Below are positions 34,052 through 64,000 of a stretch of 64,000 nucleotides of DNA, in pieces (the stretch's first letter is position 1; each line of letters starts with the position of its first letter). The stretch comes from Bacteroidales bacterium. Lineage in GTDB: Bacteria; Bacteroidota; Bacteroidia; Bacteroidales; JAAYJT01. The stretch covers positions 1 to 64,000 of the forward strand of contig JACZJK010000032.1 in assembly GCA_014860575.1 (NCBI GenBank), written 5' to 3'. The notes under the pieces are model-generated. The model was not told where the DNA came from and searched no databases. It worked only from the letters and a program-made list of their open reading frames with translations. The position numbers and the translations under genes were made by a program.

Positions 34052-34519
34052 ATGAAAAAGAATCTCATTGCATCGGCTGGTATTATTTTGTTAGTGCTAA
34101 GTTTCACCGCCTCTGCTTTTGCCCAGACCGAGTCCACTACTAAAGGGCCAGTTATCGAATTCGATAAAGAAACTCACGATTACGGAACCGTTTATGTTAA
34201 TGGCGATGGTAATTGTGTATTTACCTTTACAAATAAAGGTAATGAACCATTGGTTCTCTCTAATGTAAGGGCAGGATGTGGTTGCACCGTTCCCGAATGG
34301 CCTCGCGAGCCGGTTTTACCTGGAAAAAGTGCACAGATAAAGGTAAAATATACCACGTTAAACAGACCACATACCATTAATAAATCAATTGTAGTCACAT
34401 CAAACTCAATTGTTGACAATACGATTGTTCTAAGGATCAAAGGAGAGGTGGTTGCAGCACCTAACCAGGCATCACCGGAAAAAGTACAAAGCCAGCTTTC
34501 AGCGCCCGGGACTAAATAA
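34052..34519 (+). CDS. Exported DUF1573 protein, copy 1
   Basis: 155 residues with a signal peptide (LIASAGIILLVLSFTASAFA). The DUF1573 Ig-like core includes GPVIEFDKETHDYGTVYVNG and NVRAGCGCTVPEWPREPV. Its Cys pair (CGC) may bind metal or redox partners. Function is not established for the family, which is abundant in Bacteroidota. It is followed by a strong terminator (34541-34576). A close paralogue starts 617 bases downstream. Confidence 0.88.
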   Translation: MKKNLIASAGIILLVLSFTASAFAQTESTTKGPVIEFDKETHDYGTVYVNGDGNCVFTFTNKGNEPLVLSNVRAGCGCTVPEWPREPVLPGKSAQIKVKYTTLNRPHTINKSIVVTSNSIVDNTIVLRIKGEVVAAPNQASPEKVQSQLSAPGTK

Positions 34520-34668: not shown

Positions 34669-35136
34669 ATGAAAAAGGTAGTTTTTTCTTTAACCGGCAT
34701 GATCTTCTTGATGCTGTCGTTTGGCTTTTCCTTACTGGCACAAGAAGAAGCGAAAGTCTCAGGGCCATTGATTGAGTTCGACAAAGAAACCCACGATTAT
34801 GGGACAATTTATGTTAATGGCGATGGTAATTGTGTATTTACTTTTACCAACAAGGGAAACGAACCGCTCCTCTTAACTAACGTAAGGGCCGGATGCGGTT
34901 GTACCGTACCCCAGTGGCCACGCGAACCAGTGCTGCCAGGCGAAAGCGCTGAAATTAAAGTCAAGTACACAACTGTCAATAGGCCACACACGATCAACAA
35001 ATCTATTGTAGTTACATCAAATTCTGTTACCAAGAATACTGTTGTCCTGAGAATTAAAGGTGAAGTAGTGCAGGCTCCGGATCAGGCATTGCCGGAAAAG
35101 ACAAAAAGCTCTTTATCATCTCCAGGGCCTAAATAA
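34669..35136 (+). CDS. Exported DUF1573 protein, copy 2
   Basis: 155 residues, the same length as copy 1 and nearly identical over the DUF1573 core (EFDKETHDYGTIYVNG, RAGCGCTVPQWPREPV); the signal peptide and the C-terminal tail are more divergent. The duplication includes the 3' flank: both genes are followed by a terminator and then by a near-identical 27-base segment (34576-34602 and 35187-35213). It likely acts in the periplasm; role unknown. Confidence 0.88.
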   Translation: MKKVVFSLTGMIFLMLSFGFSLLAQEEAKVSGPLIEFDKETHDYGTIYVNGDGNCVFTFTNKGNEPLLLTNVRAGCGCTVPQWPREPVLPGESAEIKVKYTTVNRPHTINKSIVVTSNSVTKNTVVLRIKGEVVQAPDQALPEKTKSSLSSPGPK

Positions 35137-39176: not shown

Positions 39177-39182
39177 CATTTG

Positions 39183-39253
39183 AGGTCTCAAGCGGATTCG
39201 AACCGCTGTACGAGGTTTTGCAGACCTCTGCCTAGCCACTCGGCCATGAGACC
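39183..39253 (-). tRNA. tRNA-Cys (anticodon GCA)
   Basis: Cloverleaf on the minus strand: acceptor GGTCTCA/TGAGACC, anticodon stem GAGGT/ACCTC around CTGCAAA, T arm AGCGG-TTCGAAT-CCGCT, discriminator U as expected for tRNA-Cys. CCA is not encoded. Confidence 0.95.
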
Positions 39254-41828: not shown

Positions 41829-41901
41829 TGTCCGATGGTGTAACTGGTAACACGTCTGACTCTGAATCAGAAGAGTCTAGGTTCGAGCCCTAGTCGGACA
41901 A
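41829..41901 (+). tRNA. tRNA-Gln (anticodon CUG)
   Basis: Cloverleaf: acceptor TGTCCGA/TCGGACA, D arm GTGT-AACTGGTA-ACAC, anticodon stem TCTGA/TCAGA around loop CTCTGAA (anticodon CTG), T arm CTAGG-TTCGAGC-CCTAG, discriminator A. The U1-A72 pair is typical of bacterial tRNA-Gln. CCA is not encoded. Confidence 0.95.
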
Positions 41902-41913
41902 CTTGGAAATGAG

Positions 41914-55634: not shown

Positions 55635-56361
55635 TTAGATCATTGTTTCGGTTGTTTCAGTGTGAAATTCATAGTCCTTGCTCAATCTACAGTAGCTTTC
55701 AAACCAAGAAAAGGTTCGTTCGACTACCCATCTTTTGGGTAAGACTTTAAATTCCTTTTCTTTGTCGCTCCTCATAACTATCTCTATTATCCTGCCGTAT
55801 AATATTTTCACATTGTCAACAAGTTCGCCTCTGTATCCTCCATCGGCAAAAATTTTGGAGAGCCGATCAAAACGACCTCTTAATCGGCTAATGACCTCTT
55901 GCGCAGCTTTACTGTCATGAAAGTTAGCTGCATGTACAAACTACCACTAATAGCAAACCAAGTGTGTCTGTAACAATATGTTGTTTTCTCCCTTTTATGT
56001 TGTTACCACCATCAATGCCTCTACATTAACCTACTGATCTTGAGATTTTTACTGAACGACTATTGATGCATGCAGCACTGGGACTTTCCTGATGATCTGA
56101 TTTTGTGCGGACAAGATTCCTCAGAGCCTCATGTATTTCCTCAATCAAACCATTGTTTTTCCATTGCCTGTAATAGTAATAGACAGTATTCCAGGGAGGA
56201 AAGTGCAAAGGCAACATCCTCCATTGCCAGCCTGTTTTTAGTAAATAGAAAATCGCATCAAAAATTTCTTTAAGCGCGTGTCTGCGTTTTCGGGTGACAT
56301 TTAAAAAAATTGTTATAATTTTCCATTGATTTTCAGTCAGGTTGGTTGAGTAATTTTTCAT
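55635..56361 (-). pseudogene. IS5-family transposase, degenerate (nonsense, frameshift, Asp-to-Asn)
   Basis: Frame from the ATG at 56361: MKNYSTNLTENQWKIITIFL, the DUF4096 domain (WQWRMLPLHFPPWNTVYYYY) of IS5-family enzymes. A TAA at about 56026 interrupts the frame ([19 protein letters not shown]); a one-base indel follows near LLLVVV. The frame then resumes ([43 protein letters not shown]) and ends at 55635. The first catalytic Asp is Asn (CINSRSVK instead of CIDSxSVK); the second Asp and the Glu are kept. It is inactive. The terminal inverted repeats were not located. Confidence 0.85.
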
Positions 56362-56630: not shown

Positions 56631-58550
56631 ATGAGTATTGTATTAAGTGTAAGTTCATTTCATAAACAATTTGTAACCAAAAAAATTGATCTGGCTAAGT
56701 TTTTTATTATTTCCAACAAACTTGGTTTCAGATCTGTTGAGATATGTGACAGAAGTATTGAAAAAACCGACCGAATTTATTTGGAATCAATCAGAAACTT
56801 ATTGAAAAAAAACTCTCTTTCCCTGTGTGCTCTAGATATACGAAATGATTTTACATATGGGGAAAAGGAAAAACTTCTACAACAAATTAATCATGTAAAA
56901 AAATGGATTGAAATTGCATCATTCTTTCAGACTCCTATCGTCAGAATCTGGGGTGGGCAAGCAAGCACTACGGATACTGCTTTACAAAGAGTCTGTGATG
57001 CCATATCCTCACTAATACCCCATGCACAAAAGCATCATATTAAATTGGCCCTTGAGAATCACGGAGGAATTTGTGCAAATTTTGAAAACGTATTAAAAAT
57101 TATTCACAGAATCAGTTCTGAAACACTGGGGATATGTTGTGATTTTCAGTACTTCTCAGAGGAAGATCTTTATATTGGAATCGAAAGATTCGCACCACAT
57201 ATTATCCATGTTCATGCAAAGAGTTTTAGTTTTGATGATCATGGTGAAGAAACAAGAATCAGTTATAGGACCATAGGTGAAATATTGCATAAGCACGAGT
57301 ATTCAGGAAATTATTCGATTGAATTCGAGGGAAAGGGGAATGCAAGAGAAGGTATTATTAATACTAATCGTCTAATTGAAAACTACTTTCTTAATACTCC
57401 TTTGCGAAAAACTGAGGCAATGGCTTTTTTGCCAAGAATGAGGAAGCTCAACATTGAACTAAATAAATGCAATAATCAATATCTGAAGGTAATAAAAACA
57501 AAGAACATATGGACGGATGCCAGAAAACACATTTTGGAATTTGCTGAAAATCTTGCTTCAAAGCCTGAAGTTGAAGGGGTAGTTGTATTGGGTGGACTGG
57601 CTGACACAACCTTCAGAAGGCATATTGATGACTGTTCTGATCTGGATATAGCTGTGTTTATTAATGTACCGGAGGCTCTTGGATATAGCAACTCAAAAGA
57701 GTTCGTCAGGGATAAGCAGGAATTTCTTCCTGAATGGTTACCAGAGTTTCAGTTTTATATACCGGTTAATAAGATGATGATGGAGGTGAATTGCCATCAG
57801 TTGATCTATCAGATAGAAATATCGCCTGATTTGCAATGGGATGAAAGTAAAATAGAAGCGTATAAATTTACAGGAGAAGTTCTATTTGATAGACATGGGC
57901 TTATTAAAGACCTTATATTCAACAAGACTGCTTTTATTGCAGAAAAATCTAATAGAAAACTGATTATTTTAGCTGGCCAACTTCCTTGGTATAGTTGGAT
58001 AAATCCAGAAAAGCAATTAAAAAGGGGATATCCTGAAGCATGTCATTACCTGCTTAATAAGGCATTGGATCTGATTTTGGAAATGGTTTACAACATTAAT
58101 GATCGTGAAAAACCCCATCATAAATGGCTAATTCAAACTTCTGAAACCTTGAATTGGCTACCTCAAAATTTTTTGGAAATAATAAATGAAGCCATCATTA
58201 TCCGAAATTATACGAAAAAAGAAATATTCAGAAGAATAAAGATTGTTAAAGCACTGGGTCAGGCTGTAATTAATTATGGAATTGATAACAATATGATCCC
58301 GAAAGATAGTTTTAAATTTACATCTTTATATCTGGATCATGAGAGGCAACTTTTACCGATAACTTATGCTGACCACTTAGTAAATAAAATAATGGAGGAT
58401 AATGTGATGTCTGAAGAAGAAGAGCAGGCTTTTCGCGGATTAATCAATTTCTCCTTACTAGCGAATGGTGATTTAAAGGCTGTTAATATTCGAAAAAATG
58501 CCGGATACTTTGGTGTAAATAATAAAATTCTGAAAACCTTTATAAGATAA
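56631..58550 (+). CDS. Fusion of TIM-barrel sugar isomerase/epimerase and nucleotidyltransferase-like domain
   Basis: 639 residues. The N-terminal domain (about 1-255) is a xylose-isomerase-like TIM barrel: VRIWGGQAST (about 103), LALENHGG (about 140), CCDFQYFSEEDLY, HIIHVHAKSF (about 196) and EFEGKGN near the end, consistent with metal-binding Glu/His/Asp residues. The second part (about 300-600) holds an NTase-like motif, VVVLGGLADTTF ... CSDLDIAVF (about 315-342), with the DxD carboxylates but Gly for the usual Ser. A helical C-terminal domain follows. I know no named protein with this architecture. It leads an operon of five more genes, with 3-base spacing to the DAHP synthase. Substrates unknown. 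Confidence 0.82.
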   Translation: MSIVLSVSSFHKQFVTKKIDLAKFFIISNKLGFRSVEICDRSIEKTDRIYLESIRNLLKKNSLSLCALDIRNDFTYGEKEKLLQQINHVKKWIEIASFFQTPIVRIWGGQASTTDTALQRVCDAISSLIPHAQKHHIKLALENHGGICANFENVLKIIHRISSETLGICCDFQYFSEEDLYIGIERFAPHIIHVHAKSFSFDDHGEETRISYRTIGEILHKHEYSGNYSIEFEGKGNAREGIINTNRLIENYFLNTPLRKTEAMAFLPRMRKLNIELNKCNNQYLKVIKTKNIWTDARKHILEFAENLASKPEVEGVVVLGGLADTTFRRHIDDCSDLDIAVFINVPEALGYSNSKEFVRDKQEFLPEWLPEFQFYIPVNKMMMEVNCHQLIYQIEISPDLQWDESKIEAYKFTGEVLFDRHGLIKDLIFNKTAFIAEKSNRKLIILAGQLPWYSWINPEKQLKRGYPEACHYLLNKALDLILEMVYNINDREKPHHKWLIQTSETLNWLPQNFLEIINEAIIIRNYTKKEIFRRIKIVKALGQAVINYGIDNNMIPKDSFKFTSLYLDHERQLLPITYADHLVNKIMEDNVMSEEEEQAFRGLINFSLLANGDLKAVNIRKNAGYFGVNNKILKTFIR

Positions 58551-58553
58551 ATT

Positions 58554-59567
58554 ATGGTTATTGAGCTTTTTTTAAATACTGATGGAAATACAGTGAATGA
58601 ATTTTGCAATTCATTGCAAAACCCTAACCGGATTGTTAAGGAACTAATTATTGATAAAAGGAAATTTCTAATAATTTCCGGTGATAAAGAGAACATAGAT
58701 GTGGAAAAAATTAAAAGTTTACCTTTTATTTCTTTTGTCAGCGATAAGGAAATATCTGCTTACTTTTGCTCTAGGTCCTTTAAAGAAGAACCATCAATTG
58801 TAAATGTTAACGGTGTAAATATAGGGCACGGATCATTCAGGGTTATTGCTGGTCCTTGTGCGGTAGAAAACAAGGAGGATTTGTTTGAAACGGCAAAAGT
58901 TCTCAAAGAACTAGGTGCTGATATTTTTAGAGCGGGAGCCTATAAGCCTAGAACGACTCCTTATAATTTCCAAGGTATGGGAGAAGAAGGCCTAAAACTG
59001 CTTGCTGAAGTCCGAAAGAGATATGATATTCCCGTTGTTTCGGAAATTTTGGATCCATTTGACATTCCAATGGCAGAGAAATATCTGGACATGATTCAAG
59101 TCGGCACGCGAAATATGACCAATCAGGCCCTGTTAAAGCATCTTGGAAAATGCTCCAAACCAATCTTGTTGAAAAGAGGGTATGCGTCTACTATTGAAGA
59201 TTTGATTAAAGCTGCAGAATTCATTGCAGTTAACGGTAATCCGAATGTTATTCTTTGTGAGCGCGGAATCCAGACTTTTGAAAAACAAACTAGAAACACC
59301 CTTGATATCAGCGCAATCCCGATCCTTCATTCATTATCTCACTTACCTGTCGTAGTAGATCCTTCGCATGCTGCCGGGCGAAAAGATATAATCCCAACAC
59401 TGGTCAAATGTGCTATCGTGGCTGGAGCTGATGCCATAATGGTGGAAGCTTACAATAAACCAGATACGATGATCAGACCAGGAGACAAAAACCAAACGTT
59501 GACGATTGATGAATTCAAGAAGTTAATGGAAACTATAAAAAAAATCTTACCTTTTAAAAACAAGTAA
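58554..59567 (+). CDS. 3-deoxy-7-phosphoheptulonate (DAHP) synthase, type I-beta
   Basis: 337 residues: a short N-terminal ferredoxin-like regulatory domain (about 1-80) and the catalytic barrel. Metal ligands are present: Cys in VIAGPCAVEN (about 103), His in VVDPSHAAGR (about 268), Glu in AIMVEAYNKPD and Asp in the same motif. KPRTTPYNFQGMG and GTRNMTNQALLKHLG are typical. It joins PEP and erythrose 4-phosphate in the shikimate pathway; relatives serve pathway-specific chemistry. Here it is inside an operon with no other shikimate gene, so a pathway-specific role is possible. Confidence 0.93.
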   Translation: MVIELFLNTDGNTVNEFCNSLQNPNRIVKELIIDKRKFLIISGDKENIDVEKIKSLPFISFVSDKEISAYFCSRSFKEEPSIVNVNGVNIGHGSFRVIAGPCAVENKEDLFETAKVLKELGADIFRAGAYKPRTTPYNFQGMGEEGLKLLAEVRKRYDIPVVSEILDPFDIPMAEKYLDMIQVGTRNMTNQALLKHLGKCSKPILLKRGYASTIEDLIKAAEFIAVNGNPNVILCERGIQTFEKQTRNTLDISAIPILHSLSHLPVVVDPSHAAGRKDIIPTLVKCAIVAGADAIMVEAYNKPDTMIRPGDKNQTLTIDEFKKLMETIKKILPFKNK

Positions 59568-59573
59568 AAGACA

Positions 59574-60974
59574 ATGAATATTAAATTCTACAACACATTA
59601 ACAAAGACAAAAGAAGATTTTCAATCAATTGAGCCTGATTGGGTAAGGCTGTATACATGCGGACCTACAGTCTATAATTATGCGCACATAGGGAACCTTC
59701 GAACATACATTAATGAGGATTTGTTGCGAAGAACATTGGAGTATTTTGGTTATAAAGTGAAGCATGTTATGAATATTACAGATGTTGGGCATCTGGAATC
59801 TGATGCTGACACGGGTGAAGATAAAATGATGCTAGGAGCACAACGAGAGCACAAGACAGTATGGGAGGTAGCAAGATTTTATGAAGATGTTTTTTTTAAG
59901 GACTGTGCCGAACTCAACATTTCACCTCCCAATATAAAATGTAGAGCAACTGACCATATAAGTGATATTATCAACTTTATTCACAAATTAGATGAAAAGG
60001 GATATGTTTATGAGGTTGACGGGAATGTGTATTTTGATATTTCGAAATTTCCCAGATATGGACAGCTGATCAATTTTGATAAAATTAAACATCAGCGTAT
60101 CGCACGGGTCGAAACAGATTCAAGGAAAAAGAATAATGAGGATTTTGTATTATGGTTCTCTATTTCCAAATTCCAGAATCAGATAATGCAATGGGATTCT
60201 CCCTGGGGAAAAGGATTCCCGGGATGGCATATTGAATGCTCTGTAATGGCAATTAAATATCTTGGAGAGCAACTTGATATTCATTGCGGAGGAATTGATC
60301 ACATTCCGATACACCACACCAATGAAATTGCTCAGTCTGAAGGTTATCTTGGACATAAGTGGTGCAATACATGGATGCATGGTGAGTTTCTGGTCACAGA
60401 TAAAGAAAAGATGTCAAAATCCAAAGATAATTTTCTTGATCTGCGGGAACTGAAAAATAAACAGTACACCCCTCTGGAGTACCGATATTATTGTTTAAAT
60501 ACACATTATCGCAGGCAGTTAAATTTTGGATTCGATAATATGGATAGTACGTCAGCAGCTTTCAGAAGTTTACAAAACACAATACAAGACTGGAATGACA
60601 ATCCTTCCGATACTGACGTGGAATCCTCCCTGTATAATGCCTATTTGAAAGATTTCAAATCAGTCATAGCTGACGATTTAAATATTCCGCTTGCTGTCCA
60701 GTTACTCTGGAAATTAGTCGGGGATAAAAAAATATCAAAGAACGAAAAACTGCGTCTTACTCTACAATTTGATAAGGTTTTCGGACTTGGGCTAGAGTCT
60801 ATTGTTAATGTAGGCTTGCCGGATGAATTGCTGTCTCTAATAAAAGAAAGAGAATTATTGCGGAAAGCAAATCGCTGGGAAGAAGCTGATCAGGTCAGGG
60901 CTAAAATAGCAGATTTGGGATACGGAATAAAAGATACATCAGGAGATACAAAGTGGTTTAAGATTATCCGATAA
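59574..60974 (+). CDS. Cysteinyl-tRNA synthetase-like enzyme
   Basis: 466 residues, full-length. Class I motifs: HIGH equivalent YNYAHIGNLRTYI with zinc Cys in LYTCGPTVY, GWHIECSVMA (zinc Cys), HCGGIDHIPIHHTNE (zinc His and Glu) and KMSKSKDNF. The DALR/anticodon-binding region and the C-terminal ANRWEEADQVRAKIADLG motif are also present. All elements of CysRS are there, but the sequence diverges in the core (LWF for LWK, HHTNE for HHENE). It could be a housekeeping or second CysRS, or a tRNA-independent cysteine ligase like MshC. The operon context makes the latter worth testing. Confidence 0.88.
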   Translation: MNIKFYNTLTKTKEDFQSIEPDWVRLYTCGPTVYNYAHIGNLRTYINEDLLRRTLEYFGYKVKHVMNITDVGHLESDADTGEDKMMLGAQREHKTVWEVARFYEDVFFKDCAELNISPPNIKCRATDHISDIINFIHKLDEKGYVYEVDGNVYFDISKFPRYGQLINFDKIKHQRIARVETDSRKKNNEDFVLWFSISKFQNQIMQWDSPWGKGFPGWHIECSVMAIKYLGEQLDIHCGGIDHIPIHHTNEIAQSEGYLGHKWCNTWMHGEFLVTDKEKMSKSKDNFLDLRELKNKQYTPLEYRYYCLNTHYRRQLNFGFDNMDSTSAAFRSLQNTIQDWNDNPSDTDVESSLYNAYLKDFKSVIADDLNIPLAVQLLWKLVGDKKISKNEKLRLTLQFDKVFGLGLESIVNVGLPDELLSLIKERELLRKANRWEEADQVRAKIADLGYGIKDTSGDTKWFKIIR

Positions 60975-60991
60975 CCAGCCAGCTTACAAAA

Positions 60992-62287
60992 ATGCCACCT
61001 GAAGAAGACTATTATTATGACACGGAATCTAACTTATGGTTAAATAATAACCGGAATTTTTCCTCTTTTCTTCTCAATAATTATTTTAAAATTGATTATG
61101 AGTCTATCGATGATTTTGAGATAATCTATAGATTTCAGAATGAGGTGCATAATTTGCTTTATCGGTTCATTAACGGTCGGTTTCCAGAAAATTATTGGAC
61201 AGGGAAAGTCAGTATTAATTTGTCAGCGCTAAAAAAAATTGTACTTACCCTGCAGAAAAGAATTTCAGGCAATCCGCTTCTCTTCAAAGGCCAAATTGCT
61301 ACTGTTCCTGAAATGTATTTTTACCCAGTAAAAATTGTGGCGGGTATTCTTTCCGAAGCATATATATTACTTGAAAGTTTAATTCCTATTAATCAAACAA
61401 GCATCATAGTCAACGATGTTAAGTCATTGGAAAATTGGAGGTTGAACAGTATCCCGGAGGATCATAATTACCTCAAACCTGTCTTCAGACTATCTGAATT
61501 TATTAAGAATTTTCGGCATTTGATTAATTCCTTTTTCATTCATGGGAGCGTTGCCACTCATGAGTATATTAAGAATTATAGCGATCTGGATACCCTGGTC
61601 ATTATAAAATCAGAAACTGTAAAGAATTTCGAAGCAATTTTAGAACTTCGAGAATATATTATTAAAACCAATATTTGTCTATTTCAAATTGATTCCTTGA
61701 TGCATCACGGCATAATGTGCTTCTCCGAGATTGACACTAGATTCTACCCTGAAACTTATTTTCCACTCTTAATATTTGATTACAGTATTTGCATCTACTC
61801 AAACTCAGACAGTATGATATTTTATCCCCGTGACGTAAGGAAAGATACCTATGCTATGCTGGCACAATTTTATGAATACTTCAGCAATCAACATTTTAAA
61901 TATAATTATAATACAAATGCTTTCTATTCAAAAAATTACCTCCAGAATCTTTTAATATTGCCTTGTTTATATTATCAAGCAATGAACCAGAGGTACATAT
62001 ATAAAAAGGACAGTTTTGAGGAAGTGTCAAAAACATTTTCTTCTGAAGCTTGGCTTCCTATCAGCGAAGCATCCTGGATAAGGCTACTATACAAGAACAA
62101 ACCACTGCTTTCCTTTTTCTTTAATTTAATGTTGAATAAAGTTGTCAGTTATAAATTGTTGCTTTCCTTAGAGAAAAAGTTGAAAAAGGATCTTACTTGT
62201 TTTCAGAATTTCCAGGGGAATAATTTTAAAAAGTCCGGATTTGAGCTAGTTCAGAAGATGATTCTTAACCTTGTTGAGCATGTGTGA
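60992..62287 (+). CDS. Nucleotidyltransferase-like protein of unknown substrate
   Basis: 431 residues. The first 170 residues are helical. An NTase core then shows IHGSVATHEYI and NYSDLDTLVII (about 182-205), the GS...DxD signature of the pol-beta superfamily. The rest is helical, Tyr/Phe/Lys-rich, and without a match I recognise. It resembles neither CCA-adding enzymes nor known antibiotic NTases. It starts 17 bases after the CysRS-like gene and overlaps the next gene by 17. Confidence 0.7.
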   Translation: MPPEEDYYYDTESNLWLNNNRNFSSFLLNNYFKIDYESIDDFEIIYRFQNEVHNLLYRFINGRFPENYWTGKVSINLSALKKIVLTLQKRISGNPLLFKGQIATVPEMYFYPVKIVAGILSEAYILLESLIPINQTSIIVNDVKSLENWRLNSIPEDHNYLKPVFRLSEFIKNFRHLINSFFIHGSVATHEYIKNYSDLDTLVIIKSETVKNFEAILELREYIIKTNICLFQIDSLMHHGIMCFSEIDTRFYPETYFPLLIFDYSICIYSNSDSMIFYPRDVRKDTYAMLAQFYEYFSNQHFKYNYNTNAFYSKNYLQNLLILPCLYYQAMNQRYIYKKDSFEEVSKTFSSEAWLPISEASWIRLLYKNKPLLSFFFNLMLNKVVSYKLLLSLEKKLKKDLTCFQNFQGNNFKKSGFELVQKMILNLVEHV

Positions 62288-63380
62288 AAAAAAGTTTATA
62301 AGCGGCTCAGGTCAGTCAGTACGCGACTCGATACTGAAATTATCAGTGAATGACTATAAGGAAGTACTTGACTTCTATATTGAGAAAATATCGAAAAAAA
62401 CTTCTATTAGATCCATTTATCAGGCGGGCAGGTGCAATACATCGGGATTCTCCGATATTGATCTGATTATTGTTACAGGCGAAGACTTTTCGATATCACA
62501 TCATCGCAGAATAATGGATGCATCTGATGCACGGGTAAAATACTTGTTTGTACACAATCCGGTGTTCTGCACCGAATTATTATTCAAAAAACTTCAATAT
62601 TGGTATACCGTTTCCGAAATTAAGCATCTTTATGGTGAATCACTTGAAATTGATTATTTATCGGAAACAAATCCGAATCATATTTTAAAGATTAATAACT
62701 GGTTTATAACCAAAATACCTCGTTGTTTCTGGAGGTCAAAGCTTGCTGACGTTGGGGATGTCAGAACGATGCTTAATCACATGTATTCATTCAGGCATAC
62801 TGTTAACCTGATTAAACCTTTTCTGGGGATGTCCTATGACAAATGGGATGATATGATTGATGTTGTTAGTAAAATGAGAAATGACTGGTTTGAATTAGGT
62901 CCAACAAAATATTCATGCTTGATACAGTGTTTGTCAGAAGTGATAGCCTTATCCTATGAAATGATGGAAAAATGGGCTGAATTTATTCAATCGTATTTTA
63001 ATATTCAGTATATGAAAGAGAAATATGGAGAGATAATATATGGCGGATATAACACAAATATAGTATTTTCATCCGATTGGGCTATCCCTGAGGCCGTCCG
63101 ATATACCCCAGAAGAATACCGAAAGTTCAGTTCCTTGGTGATAAATCTTCCATCCGTTATGGCTTTCCCCCTTATGAATTATTCAAAGAAGGAACCGAGC
63201 CTTATCGGTAAATACATCAAAAAAAAATTGTTTGTAAATCGAATTGAATTCATTGCAAGTCATGACAATGACATGTTTTTTAACCACTTGGAAATACTTG
63301 ACGATTATCTTAACTACCAGGGTCAGATAGGAAATCCGTACGCAGAAATAATATATACACTTGGAGCAAAAGCAACCTGA
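62271..63380 (+). CDS. Second nucleotidyltransferase-like protein
   Basis: 369 residues (start 62271, or Met4 at 62280 with 8-base overlap). An NTase-like core is visible near the N-terminus: YQAGRCNTSGFSDIDLIIV (about 49-67), the DxD pair kept but Arg for the usual Ser after Gly. The rest is helical and rich in aromatic residues (LNHMYSFRHTVNLIKPFLG). Overlap with the previous gene indicates translational coupling. It may work on the same substrate as its neighbours. Confidence 0.68.
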   Translation: MLSMCEKKFISGSGQSVRDSILKLSVNDYKEVLDFYIEKISKKTSIRSIYQAGRCNTSGFSDIDLIIVTGEDFSISHHRRIMDASDARVKYLFVHNPVFCTELLFKKLQYWYTVSEIKHLYGESLEIDYLSETNPNHILKINNWFITKIPRCFWRSKLADVGDVRTMLNHMYSFRHTVNLIKPFLGMSYDKWDDMIDVVSKMRNDWFELGPTKYSCLIQCLSEVIALSYEMMEKWAEFIQSYFNIQYMKEKYGEIIYGGYNTNIVFSSDWAIPEAVRYTPEEYRKFSSLVINLPSVMAFPLMNYSKKEPSLIGKYIKKKLFVNRIEFIASHDNDMFFNHLEILDDYLNYQGQIGNPYAEIIYTLGAKAT

Positions 63381-63425
63381 TCAAGATGTTCTTTTACCGT
63401 TTAATATAAATGTTAATCACCAACG

Positions 63426-64000
63426 ATGCAGACAATATTTTTCAAAAATATTTTATTTTCAATCTATGAAGTTGGACTGTTTTTATTGAAAATAAAGGCG
63501 CTCTATAATAGTGTCTTAAACAGGAATTCCTTTATCAATCCTTTACGGGTACGAAAGATACTGGTTGTTAAATTTTATGGTATTGGTAATATGGTTCTAT
63601 TTACTCCTGTCCTGAAAAGACTGAGAAAGAAAATGCCAGGTGTAAAAATAGTATTATATACAAATTCGAAAGCATTAGAGGTAATCAAGGGGACCAATTA
63701 TTACGATGATGCAATATTGCTCGAGAACACCCAGAAGCTTAAAAAATTTCGGGCTGAGTATTACAGGTTTATAAATAAAATAAGACAGGAAAACTTCGAT
63801 ATGATCTTTTTTTCATTCCCCCTGGAAGCAAACTGGCTAATACCTATTTTGGGAATTACAGGATCAAAATATCTGATCGGATATAATACTTCAGACCACA
63901 AAGCCTACTTTACCCATTATCTTGAGTGGGATAAGCAGAAGCATGAGGTGGTTTTGAATTTTGAACTGCTAGGGCTTTTAATATCTGGACCCTTGACGGA
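63426..64000 (+). CDS. Family 9 glycosyltransferase (heptosyltransferase-like), 5' part
   Basis: Open to the window edge (191 codons seen), ATG at 63426. After a short N-terminus (MQTIFFKNILFSIYEVGLFL) the GT9 start motif appears: RKILVVKFYGIGNMVLFTPV then LRKKMPGVKIVLYTN. Members add heptose or similar sugars to lipopolysaccharide core. The Asp normally found in the GxGD loop is Asn here (GIGNMV), as in some family members. It suggests that the operon acts on a surface glycan. Confidence 0.85.
   Translation, partial: MQTIFFKNILFSIYEVGLFLLKIKALYNSVLNRNSFINPLRVRKILVVKFYGIGNMVLFTPVLKRLRKKMPGVKIVLYTNSKALEVIKGTNYYDDAILLENTQKLKKFRAEYYRFINKIRQENFDMIFFSFPLEANWLIPILGITGSKYLIGYNTSDHKAYFTHYLEWDKQKHEVVLNFELLGLLISGPLT

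Follow-up and report, generated by a model that had tools for sequence, protein, structure and literature searches.

An eleven-gene operon on an island at tRNA-Gln

Contig JACZJK010000032.1 of the Bacteroidales bacterium assembly GCA_014860575.1 (hereafter C32; 98,477 bases of a 4.4 Mb genome in 66 contigs) carries an operon that brings together sugar-type enzymes, a 3-deoxy-D-arabino-heptulosonate 7-phosphate (DAHP) synthase homolog, a second cysteinyl-tRNA synthetase (CysRS), nucleotidyltransferases (NTases), and glycosyltransferases. The window that we analyzed comprises the first 64,000 bases of this contig, and contig coordinates continue the window numbering. The initial annotation had described six rightward frames following each other with gaps of 3, 6, and 17 bases, one overlap, and a gap of 45 bases; all six are open at the place claimed. 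When the sequence is read past the window end, as that annotation had advised, the operon grows to 11 co-directional, intact open genes spanning contig positions 56631-71066. The intergenic gaps are, in order, 3, 6, 17, -17, 45, 27, -8, -4, 21, and 3 bases, thus including three overlaps. The next genes listed after position 71066 lie on the opposite strand, and a frame of the insertion sequence (IS) 4/5-family transposase type (DUF4096, 111 aa; 56026..56361, reverse strand) is located to the left of the operon.

All operon genes are encoded on the forward strand. Open reading frame (ORF) 1 (56631..58550) joins a divergent xylose-isomerase-like triose-phosphate isomerase (TIM) barrel, at residues ~1-255, to an NTase-like domain with an SDLD motif and a weak resemblance to DUF4037. 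It is followed by a type Ib DAHP synthase homolog (ORF2, 58554..59567), a full-length CysRS (ORF3, 59574..60974), and two frames that represent the first and the second half of a split tandem NTase: ORF4 (60992..62287; GS...SDLD and MHHG motifs) and ORF5 (62271..63380; G...SDID and HNP motifs). The probable start of ORF5 is an in-frame ATG at 62280, three codons in, which leaves an ORF4/ORF5 overlap of 8 bases. ORF6 codes for a GT9 glycosyltransferase whose full gene covers C32:63426-64580, the window holding 63426..64000. The remaining genes encode a class I/II pyridoxal phosphate-dependent aminotransferase (C32:64608-65741), a B12-binding radical S-adenosylmethionine (SAM) enzyme with a CxxxCxxC motif (C32:65734-67746), a GT2 glycosyltransferase with three hydrophobic stretches predicted as probably membrane-spanning (C32:67743-68987), a divergent alanine-racemase-type protein (C32:69009-70112), and a zinc-type dehydrogenase (C32:70116-71066).

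The operon forms part of the cargo of an island of ~55.9 kb inserted at a tRNA-Gln (CTG) gene (41829..41902, forward strand). The left attachment repeat (41858-41902) corresponds to the last 45 bases of this tRNA gene and has an exact right copy at C32:97723-97767. Moreover, a tyrosine recombinase (Phage_int_SAM_5; C32:96120-97433) lies at one end of the island. Judged by this combination of an exact repeat at the tRNA 3' end and a tyrosine recombinase, the island is an integrated, putatively mobile element. A further 20-bp repeat just inside both island ends (41953 and 97578) perhaps represents the arm sites of the recombinase, and RecT and ArdC homologs are also present on the island.

The composition of the operon is distinct even inside the island. 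Mean GC content at third codon positions (GC3) is 0.351 in the operon, compared with 0.402 in 16 core genes and 0.407 in 21 other island genes, all comparison genes being hand-picked among the larger frames of C32. Operon GC3 is lower than that of the core genes (Mann-Whitney p 0.004) and of the other island genes (p 0.0002), whereas the latter show no difference from the core (p 0.68).

Several island neighbors of the operon have strong PADLOC matches, and for the island we keep a defense reading. One of these sets is CBASS-like (C32:71798-76416; L003:11799-16417), with a CapP-type peptidase, a CD-NTase (PDLC00803), a stand-alone E2, and a NucC-type effector. Another is a type III restriction-modification pair (C32:76854-82401; L003:16855 to L004:2402), with matches to a restriction enzyme and a methyltransferase. 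A defense role for the operon itself was considered and rejected, given that its PADLOC matches are weak (10 of the 11 operon proteins, the racemase left out; best 2.5e-07, for the radical SAM enzyme). Elsewhere in the window, two adjacent and closely similar 155-aa genes (34052-34519 and 34669-35136) appear to be a tandem duplication.

Enzyme families encoded by the operon

The family labels proposed initially hold for the TIM barrel, the DAHP synthase, the CysRS, the ORF4 NTase, and the GT9, which all pass their model cut-offs; for ORF1 the NTase label is a weak one, and for ORF5 it depends on homologs. ORF3 passes both the cysS model TIGR00435 (446 bits, cut-off 340) and the C-terminal domain model CysS_C (26.2 bits, cut-off 23). 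AHIGN and KMSKS, which we take to be the class I signature motifs, are readable in its sequence, and 72/74 conserved columns are kept, the 35 CysRS sequences compared deviating at 0 to 10 columns each. From these features, ORF3 is a complete canonical CysRS, predicted to charge tRNA-Cys. The initial annotation had named a sole cysS with no role in the operon as a refuting finding, but ORF3 is not the only cysS of the genome: another CysRS, of 487 aa and 38% identical to ORF3, is encoded on contig C28. Two CysRS matches at E 1e-20 occur in 2/296 genomes, namely this one and G140, where the pair possibly represents pieces of one gene. Here and below, the genome samples overlap, come from a single phylum, and include the genome under study in their counts. 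A tRNA-Cys gene lies at 39182-39253, 2.6 kb beyond the left end of the island, and its link to the CysRS cargo is probably a coincidence.

In a quick 36-sequence tree, in which ORF3 has a long branch, ORF3 groups (SH-like approximate likelihood ratio test 95-99) with Vescimonas, with genomes G388 and G180, and with plasmid genes of Vibrio coralliilyticus, Paraburkholderia, and Burkholderia. G388 and G180 are of the same phylum, each with one CysRS match (47% and 46% identical to ORF3, respectively), and the whole group is separate from the remaining CysRS of this phylum. That ORF3 stems from a lineage foreign to the phylum appears likelier, from these sequences, than its exact position in the tree. 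On the Burkholderia, Paraburkholderia, and Vibrio plasmids, the ORF3-lineage CysRS occurs without other operon genes within ~10 kb; presumably, these hosts carry a chromosomal CysRS too. The gene on the V. coralliilyticus plasmid NZ_CP009266.1 (L011) adjoins a nonribosomal peptide synthetase (NRPS) cluster with a serine O-acetyltransferase gene, and the Burkholderia plasmid gene has no NRPS cluster adjoining. Altogether, 624 plasmid records match ORF3, of which 503 are from Klebsiella. The Klebsiella cysS-like matches were dropped as another type, those listed being ~33% identical; in most of these rows no annotated gene is present, and the match sets in only at residue 24 of the query, as in a truncated copy.

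On the other hand, the DAHP synthase homolog has changed extensively. ORF2 passes the type Ib model TIGR01361 (341.6 bits, cut-off 267.75) and keeps the residues aligned with C102, H272, E298, D309, R126, K131, R186, and R237 of Thermotoga maritima; D311 is also listed as kept. These positions include the metal ligands of the T. maritima enzyme and a number of arginines and lysines. Nevertheless, ORF2 is changed at 26/100 columns in which 93% or more of 29 homologs agree, as against 0-6 in each of the homologs, 6/99 in T. maritima, and 7/94 in A. pernix. The 29 comparison sequences come from one phylum, with T. maritima and A. pernix serving as outside controls, and 17/26 changes affect sites kept in 27-29 of the 29 homologs and in both controls. 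ORF2 falls below the equivalog cut-offs for 3-deoxy-D-manno-octulosonate 8-phosphate (KDO-8-P) synthase (95.4 vs. 314) and NeuB (18.4 vs. 399.65), and passes the Pfam NeuB domain model (27.4 vs. 22.1). With its catalytic core kept, ORF2 looks changed as a specialized enzyme might be. The genome encodes two further PF00793 proteins and has six further PF01168 matches; therefore, ORF2 and the racemase are extra members of their families.

Divergence is also seen in other operon proteins. The TIM barrel of ORF1 (PF01261, 95.3 bits, cut-off 31.1) keeps E142, D171, and E231, and is altered elsewhere at positions where 28-29 of 29 relatives agree (e.g., N to Y174 and D to S211). Its NTase part scores 15.7 bits on DUF4037 within the whole protein and 17.1 bits as the C-terminal part alone, both under the cut-off of 22.1. 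The putative alanine racemase scores 215.5 bits on TIGR00492 (cut-off 168) but shows the changes Y276F, H196N, and V63T at positions where 30-31 of 31 sequences agree; among the matches listed from 85 genomes, its identity is at most 33%. For the aminotransferase, the GntC score is close to that of its best NCBIfam model and far under the cut-off (141 vs. 415). By sequence, the nearest relative of the radical SAM enzyme in the PDB is OxsB (E 2.9e-30), which acts in oxetanocin biosynthesis.

Instead of the two more NTase-like proteins of the initial annotation, ORF4 and ORF5 make up a single split enzyme. ORF4 passes PF01909 (22.5 bits, cut-off 21), with the GS...DxD motif at residues 185-200. 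ORF5 matches no Pfam/NCBIfam NTase model, and we label it by its homologs: it aligns with the second of the two NTases in a tandem protein, and these homologs are also below the PF01909 cut-off. In pairwise blastp, ORF4 (2e-12) and ORF5 (1e-8) match consecutive parts of one protein of 1141 aa in genome G132, and the identical NTase order is found in a 2337-aa protein of the Ignavibacteriota genome IGN3 and in a 914-aa protein of an Acidobacteria metagenome-assembled genome (MAG). Since the two frames align in sequence to single proteins elsewhere, they are split halves of one rare tandem NTase. An hhalign comparison of the motif regions of the two halves gave E 8e-4 with a probability of just 24%. 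Among PDB entries, the tandem NTase profile best matches streptomycin 3''-adenylyltransferase, and the E value of 0.035 makes this no more than a hint.

The tandem NTase recurs together with glycosyltransferases. In G132 (L008), the gene after the tandem NTase encodes GT9 and GT2, and in IGN3 (L047) both are fused to the NTases; the GT9 parts score 63.5 and 65.5 bits on PF01075, for a cut-off of 22. A flagellin gene is found nearby in both genomes, and the two neighborhoods resemble each other and may count as a single event. The loci share with the operon the tandem NTase, GT9, and GT2. Unlike the operon, they encode giant proteins with tetratricopeptide (TPR)-type repeats, and in the ~20 kb covered at each, genes for a DAHP synthase, a CysRS, a racemase, or a radical SAM enzyme were not noticed. 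The giant proteins with tandem NTases, GT9, and GT2 beside the flagellin genes (L047:9713-18253 and L008:9019-17534) point to possible flagellin glycosylation loci. In the operon, the full GT9 gene passes PF01075 (114.5 bits, cut-off 22) and stays below the equivalog cut-offs for lipopolysaccharide heptosyltransferases I, II, and III (best TIGR02195, 114 vs. 134.6). The best NCBIfam match of the GT2 is PgaC, below cut-off (95.5 vs. 422.3).

Distribution of the operon genes

A second copy of the operon was not found in searches with its rarer genes, which covered the one-phylum samples, plasmids, phages, viral contigs, and, in a scan limited by its patterns, species genomes; the aminotransferase, GT9, GT2, and dehydrogenase had no search of their own for second examples. 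ORF4 has a match in 1/119 relatives, and its profile in 2/395 genomes. Found in 0 of the 118 other relatives searched, the ORF4 NTase is thus not just scattered among close relatives, an outcome that would have told against the initial proposal. ORF5 matches occur in 2/247 phylum genomes and those of the radical SAM enzyme in 1/168 at 1e-30. Matches to ORF1 were obtained in 71/296 genomes, at full length in its own genome only; the others cover the TIM half, save two marginal matches to the NTase part. This part alone has matches in 6/296 genomes at E 0.01, five of them marginal. The scan of species genomes, with two short patterns taken from a two-row alignment, returned 75 stretches and 2 loci. 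In viral contigs there was no relative of ORF5, ORF1, the radical SAM enzyme, or ORF4, the patterns catching close relatives only. Likewise, no plasmid matched ORF5 or the NTase part of ORF1, and no phage matched ORF4.

Hence, the search for co-occurrence that the initial annotation called for revealed the NTase-GT9 pairing elsewhere and, in the searches made, no second example of the full gene set. Among the papers listed in searches of the open-licence literature, we saw none on such a cysS copy or on this gene set. In sum, we regard the locus as a mobile biosynthetic operon, with parts that are individually known families and a combination for which these searches hold no second example.

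Possible products of the operon

Our tentative preference, held with a little less than even confidence, is for a horizontally acquired 11-gene pathway, carried as cargo by the tRNA-Gln island, that makes an amino-acid-decorated sugar unit for a membrane or surface glycan. In such a pathway, the ORF1 isomerase, the DAHP-synthase-like aldol enzyme, and the dehydrogenase would make an unusual sugar- or sugar-acid-type unit, while the aminotransferase and the divergent racemase would supply amino-acid-type parts. The B12-radical SAM enzyme may tailor the sugar unit, which the pol-beta-type NTases would nucleotidylate, and which the GT9 and the membrane GT2 would attach to a glycan of the membrane or surface. 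The extra CysRS could either supply Cys-tRNA or maintain its charging when the housekeeping enzyme is inhibited by an intermediate of the pathway. In favor of this reading are the packing, composition, and island setting of the operon, the NTase-GT9 link in G132 and IGN3, the hydrophobic stretches of the GT2, the changed DAHP synthase and racemase beside an unchanged CysRS, and the AcmD and SbzA precedents described below. The initial annotation had advanced a related idea. Its tight run of sugar-type enzymes, NTases, and GT9 is borne out, and the NTase-GT9 pairing recurs in IGN3 and G132; the product and its acceptor are still conjectural.

Several results weigh against this preference. No transporter, flippase, KdsB-type synthetase, acyl-tRNA transferase, ligase, or regulator appears in the Pfam/NCBIfam listings of the 11 operon proteins. 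The structure predictions of ORF4 and ORF5, which had been suggested as a check, are unusable because of their low confidence (predicted local distance difference test, pLDDT, 43.5 and 43.9). The NTase-GT9 link fails in the Acidobacteria MAG, where the tandem NTase has no adjoining glycosyltransferase: there it sits next to rhodanese- and EamA-type genes, ~8 kb from a GT4-type gene. Divergence of the racemase is mild, since its changes at 3/27 conserved columns are inside the range of its homologs (0-4). In addition, the searches gave no second example of the operon by which joint selection of all 11 genes could be shown, and the GT2 and the CysRS could be independent passengers.

As the main alternative, the operon might make a diffusible specialized metabolite, such as a glycosylated amino-acid or nucleoside-like compound, with the CysRS, and perhaps the racemase and the DAHP synthase, serving for self-resistance or supply and the NTases adenylylating the product or an intermediate. 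We regard this as possible but doubtful. An extra canonical CysRS, a divergent extra DAHP synthase, and a racemase within one operon would fit such a product, and so would the kinship of the radical SAM enzyme with OxsB, the GntC score of the aminotransferase, and the faint resemblance of the tandem NTase to streptomycin 3''-adenylyltransferase. There are precedents as well. Extra aminoacyl-tRNA synthetase copies occur inside the biosynthetic clusters for ascamycin (AcmD) and SB-203208 (SbzA); AcmD, an extra alanyl-tRNA synthetase, both supplies Ala-tRNA and resists the ascamycin product, and Cys-tRNA-dependent natural products are already known from TglB, which uses Cys-tRNA (PMC12945691). 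These clusters resemble the operon in having an extra synthetase amid biosynthetic genes and another copy in the genome, and differ from it in that no AcmF-like, PEARL, or cyclodipeptide synthase (CDPS) transferase is recognized in the operon and the amino acid is cysteine, not alanine or isoleucine. In our limited search of the open-licence literature, we saw no pathway for a Cys-tRNA-dependent product that was described with a dedicated CysRS copy. As for DAHP synthases, two further sources describe a type II enzyme dedicated to the product of the phz cluster (PMC6435475) and one annotated in the fev/bag cluster (PMC6692506). BagF/FevY (NF041229) and ORF2 belong to the same homologous family, each as an extra copy inside a cluster. 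Unlike them, ORF2 scores 284.7 bits against an NF041229 cut-off of 700, and the operon lacks a recognized chorismate-using enzyme. Against a diffusible product, the membrane GT2 and the GT9 indicate a membrane acceptor, the natural-product models listed are all below cut-off, and none of the hallmarks of specialized metabolism (known core scaffold enzyme, exporter, regulator) is seen among the Pfam/NCBIfam matches of the operon proteins.

Less probable still, and in our view unlikely, is a composite cargo, that is, unrelated passengers (the second CysRS, the DAHP synthase, the racemase, and the glycan genes) gathered on the mobile island and merely aligned in direction. The island setting, the differing degree of divergence among the operon genes, and the plasmids that carry an ORF3-lineage CysRS with no other operon gene within ~10 kb would agree with it, but the close packing of 11 genes (gaps of -17 to 45 bases, three overlaps), the low GC3 relative to the remaining island, and the intactness of all frames speak against it. 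Finally, ORF3 could be conceived as an MshC-like ligase making a low-molecular-weight thiol from sugar and cysteine. MshC is a CysRS homolog sharing the catalytic domain and cysteine activation with ORF3, which matches the MshC model TIGR03447 at 187.9 bits, and sugar enzymes and glycosyltransferases adjoin the gene. This score is far under the cut-off of 485.1, whereas the cut-offs of TIGR00435 and CysS_C are reached, the whole CysRS C-terminus is kept, and just 2/74 conserved columns are changed, making such a ligase very improbable. The same features, together with the lack of an aminoacyl-tRNA transferase in the family listings, weaken the earlier proposal that a CysRS-like enzyme could add cysteine, for which AcmD and SbzA nevertheless offer a precedent.

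Returning to the decorated sugar unit, a bolder version can be formulated, in which a dedicated Cys-tRNA supply, a neofunctionalized DAHP synthase with a new aldol product, the racemase, and the B12-radical SAM enzyme would yield a sugar unit bearing both cysteine and a D-amino acid, attached to a surface glycan by the split tandem NTase-GT9 module. We consider this version improbable. If true, it would represent a novel, tRNA-dependent way of decorating glycoconjugates, disseminated by islands with phage defense among their cargo. The unchanged CysRS next to a strongly changed DAHP synthase offers a concrete, testable hint of new chemistry, and the tandem NTase-GT9 module connects the operon with rare glycan loci that, in another lineage, adjoin flagellin genes.

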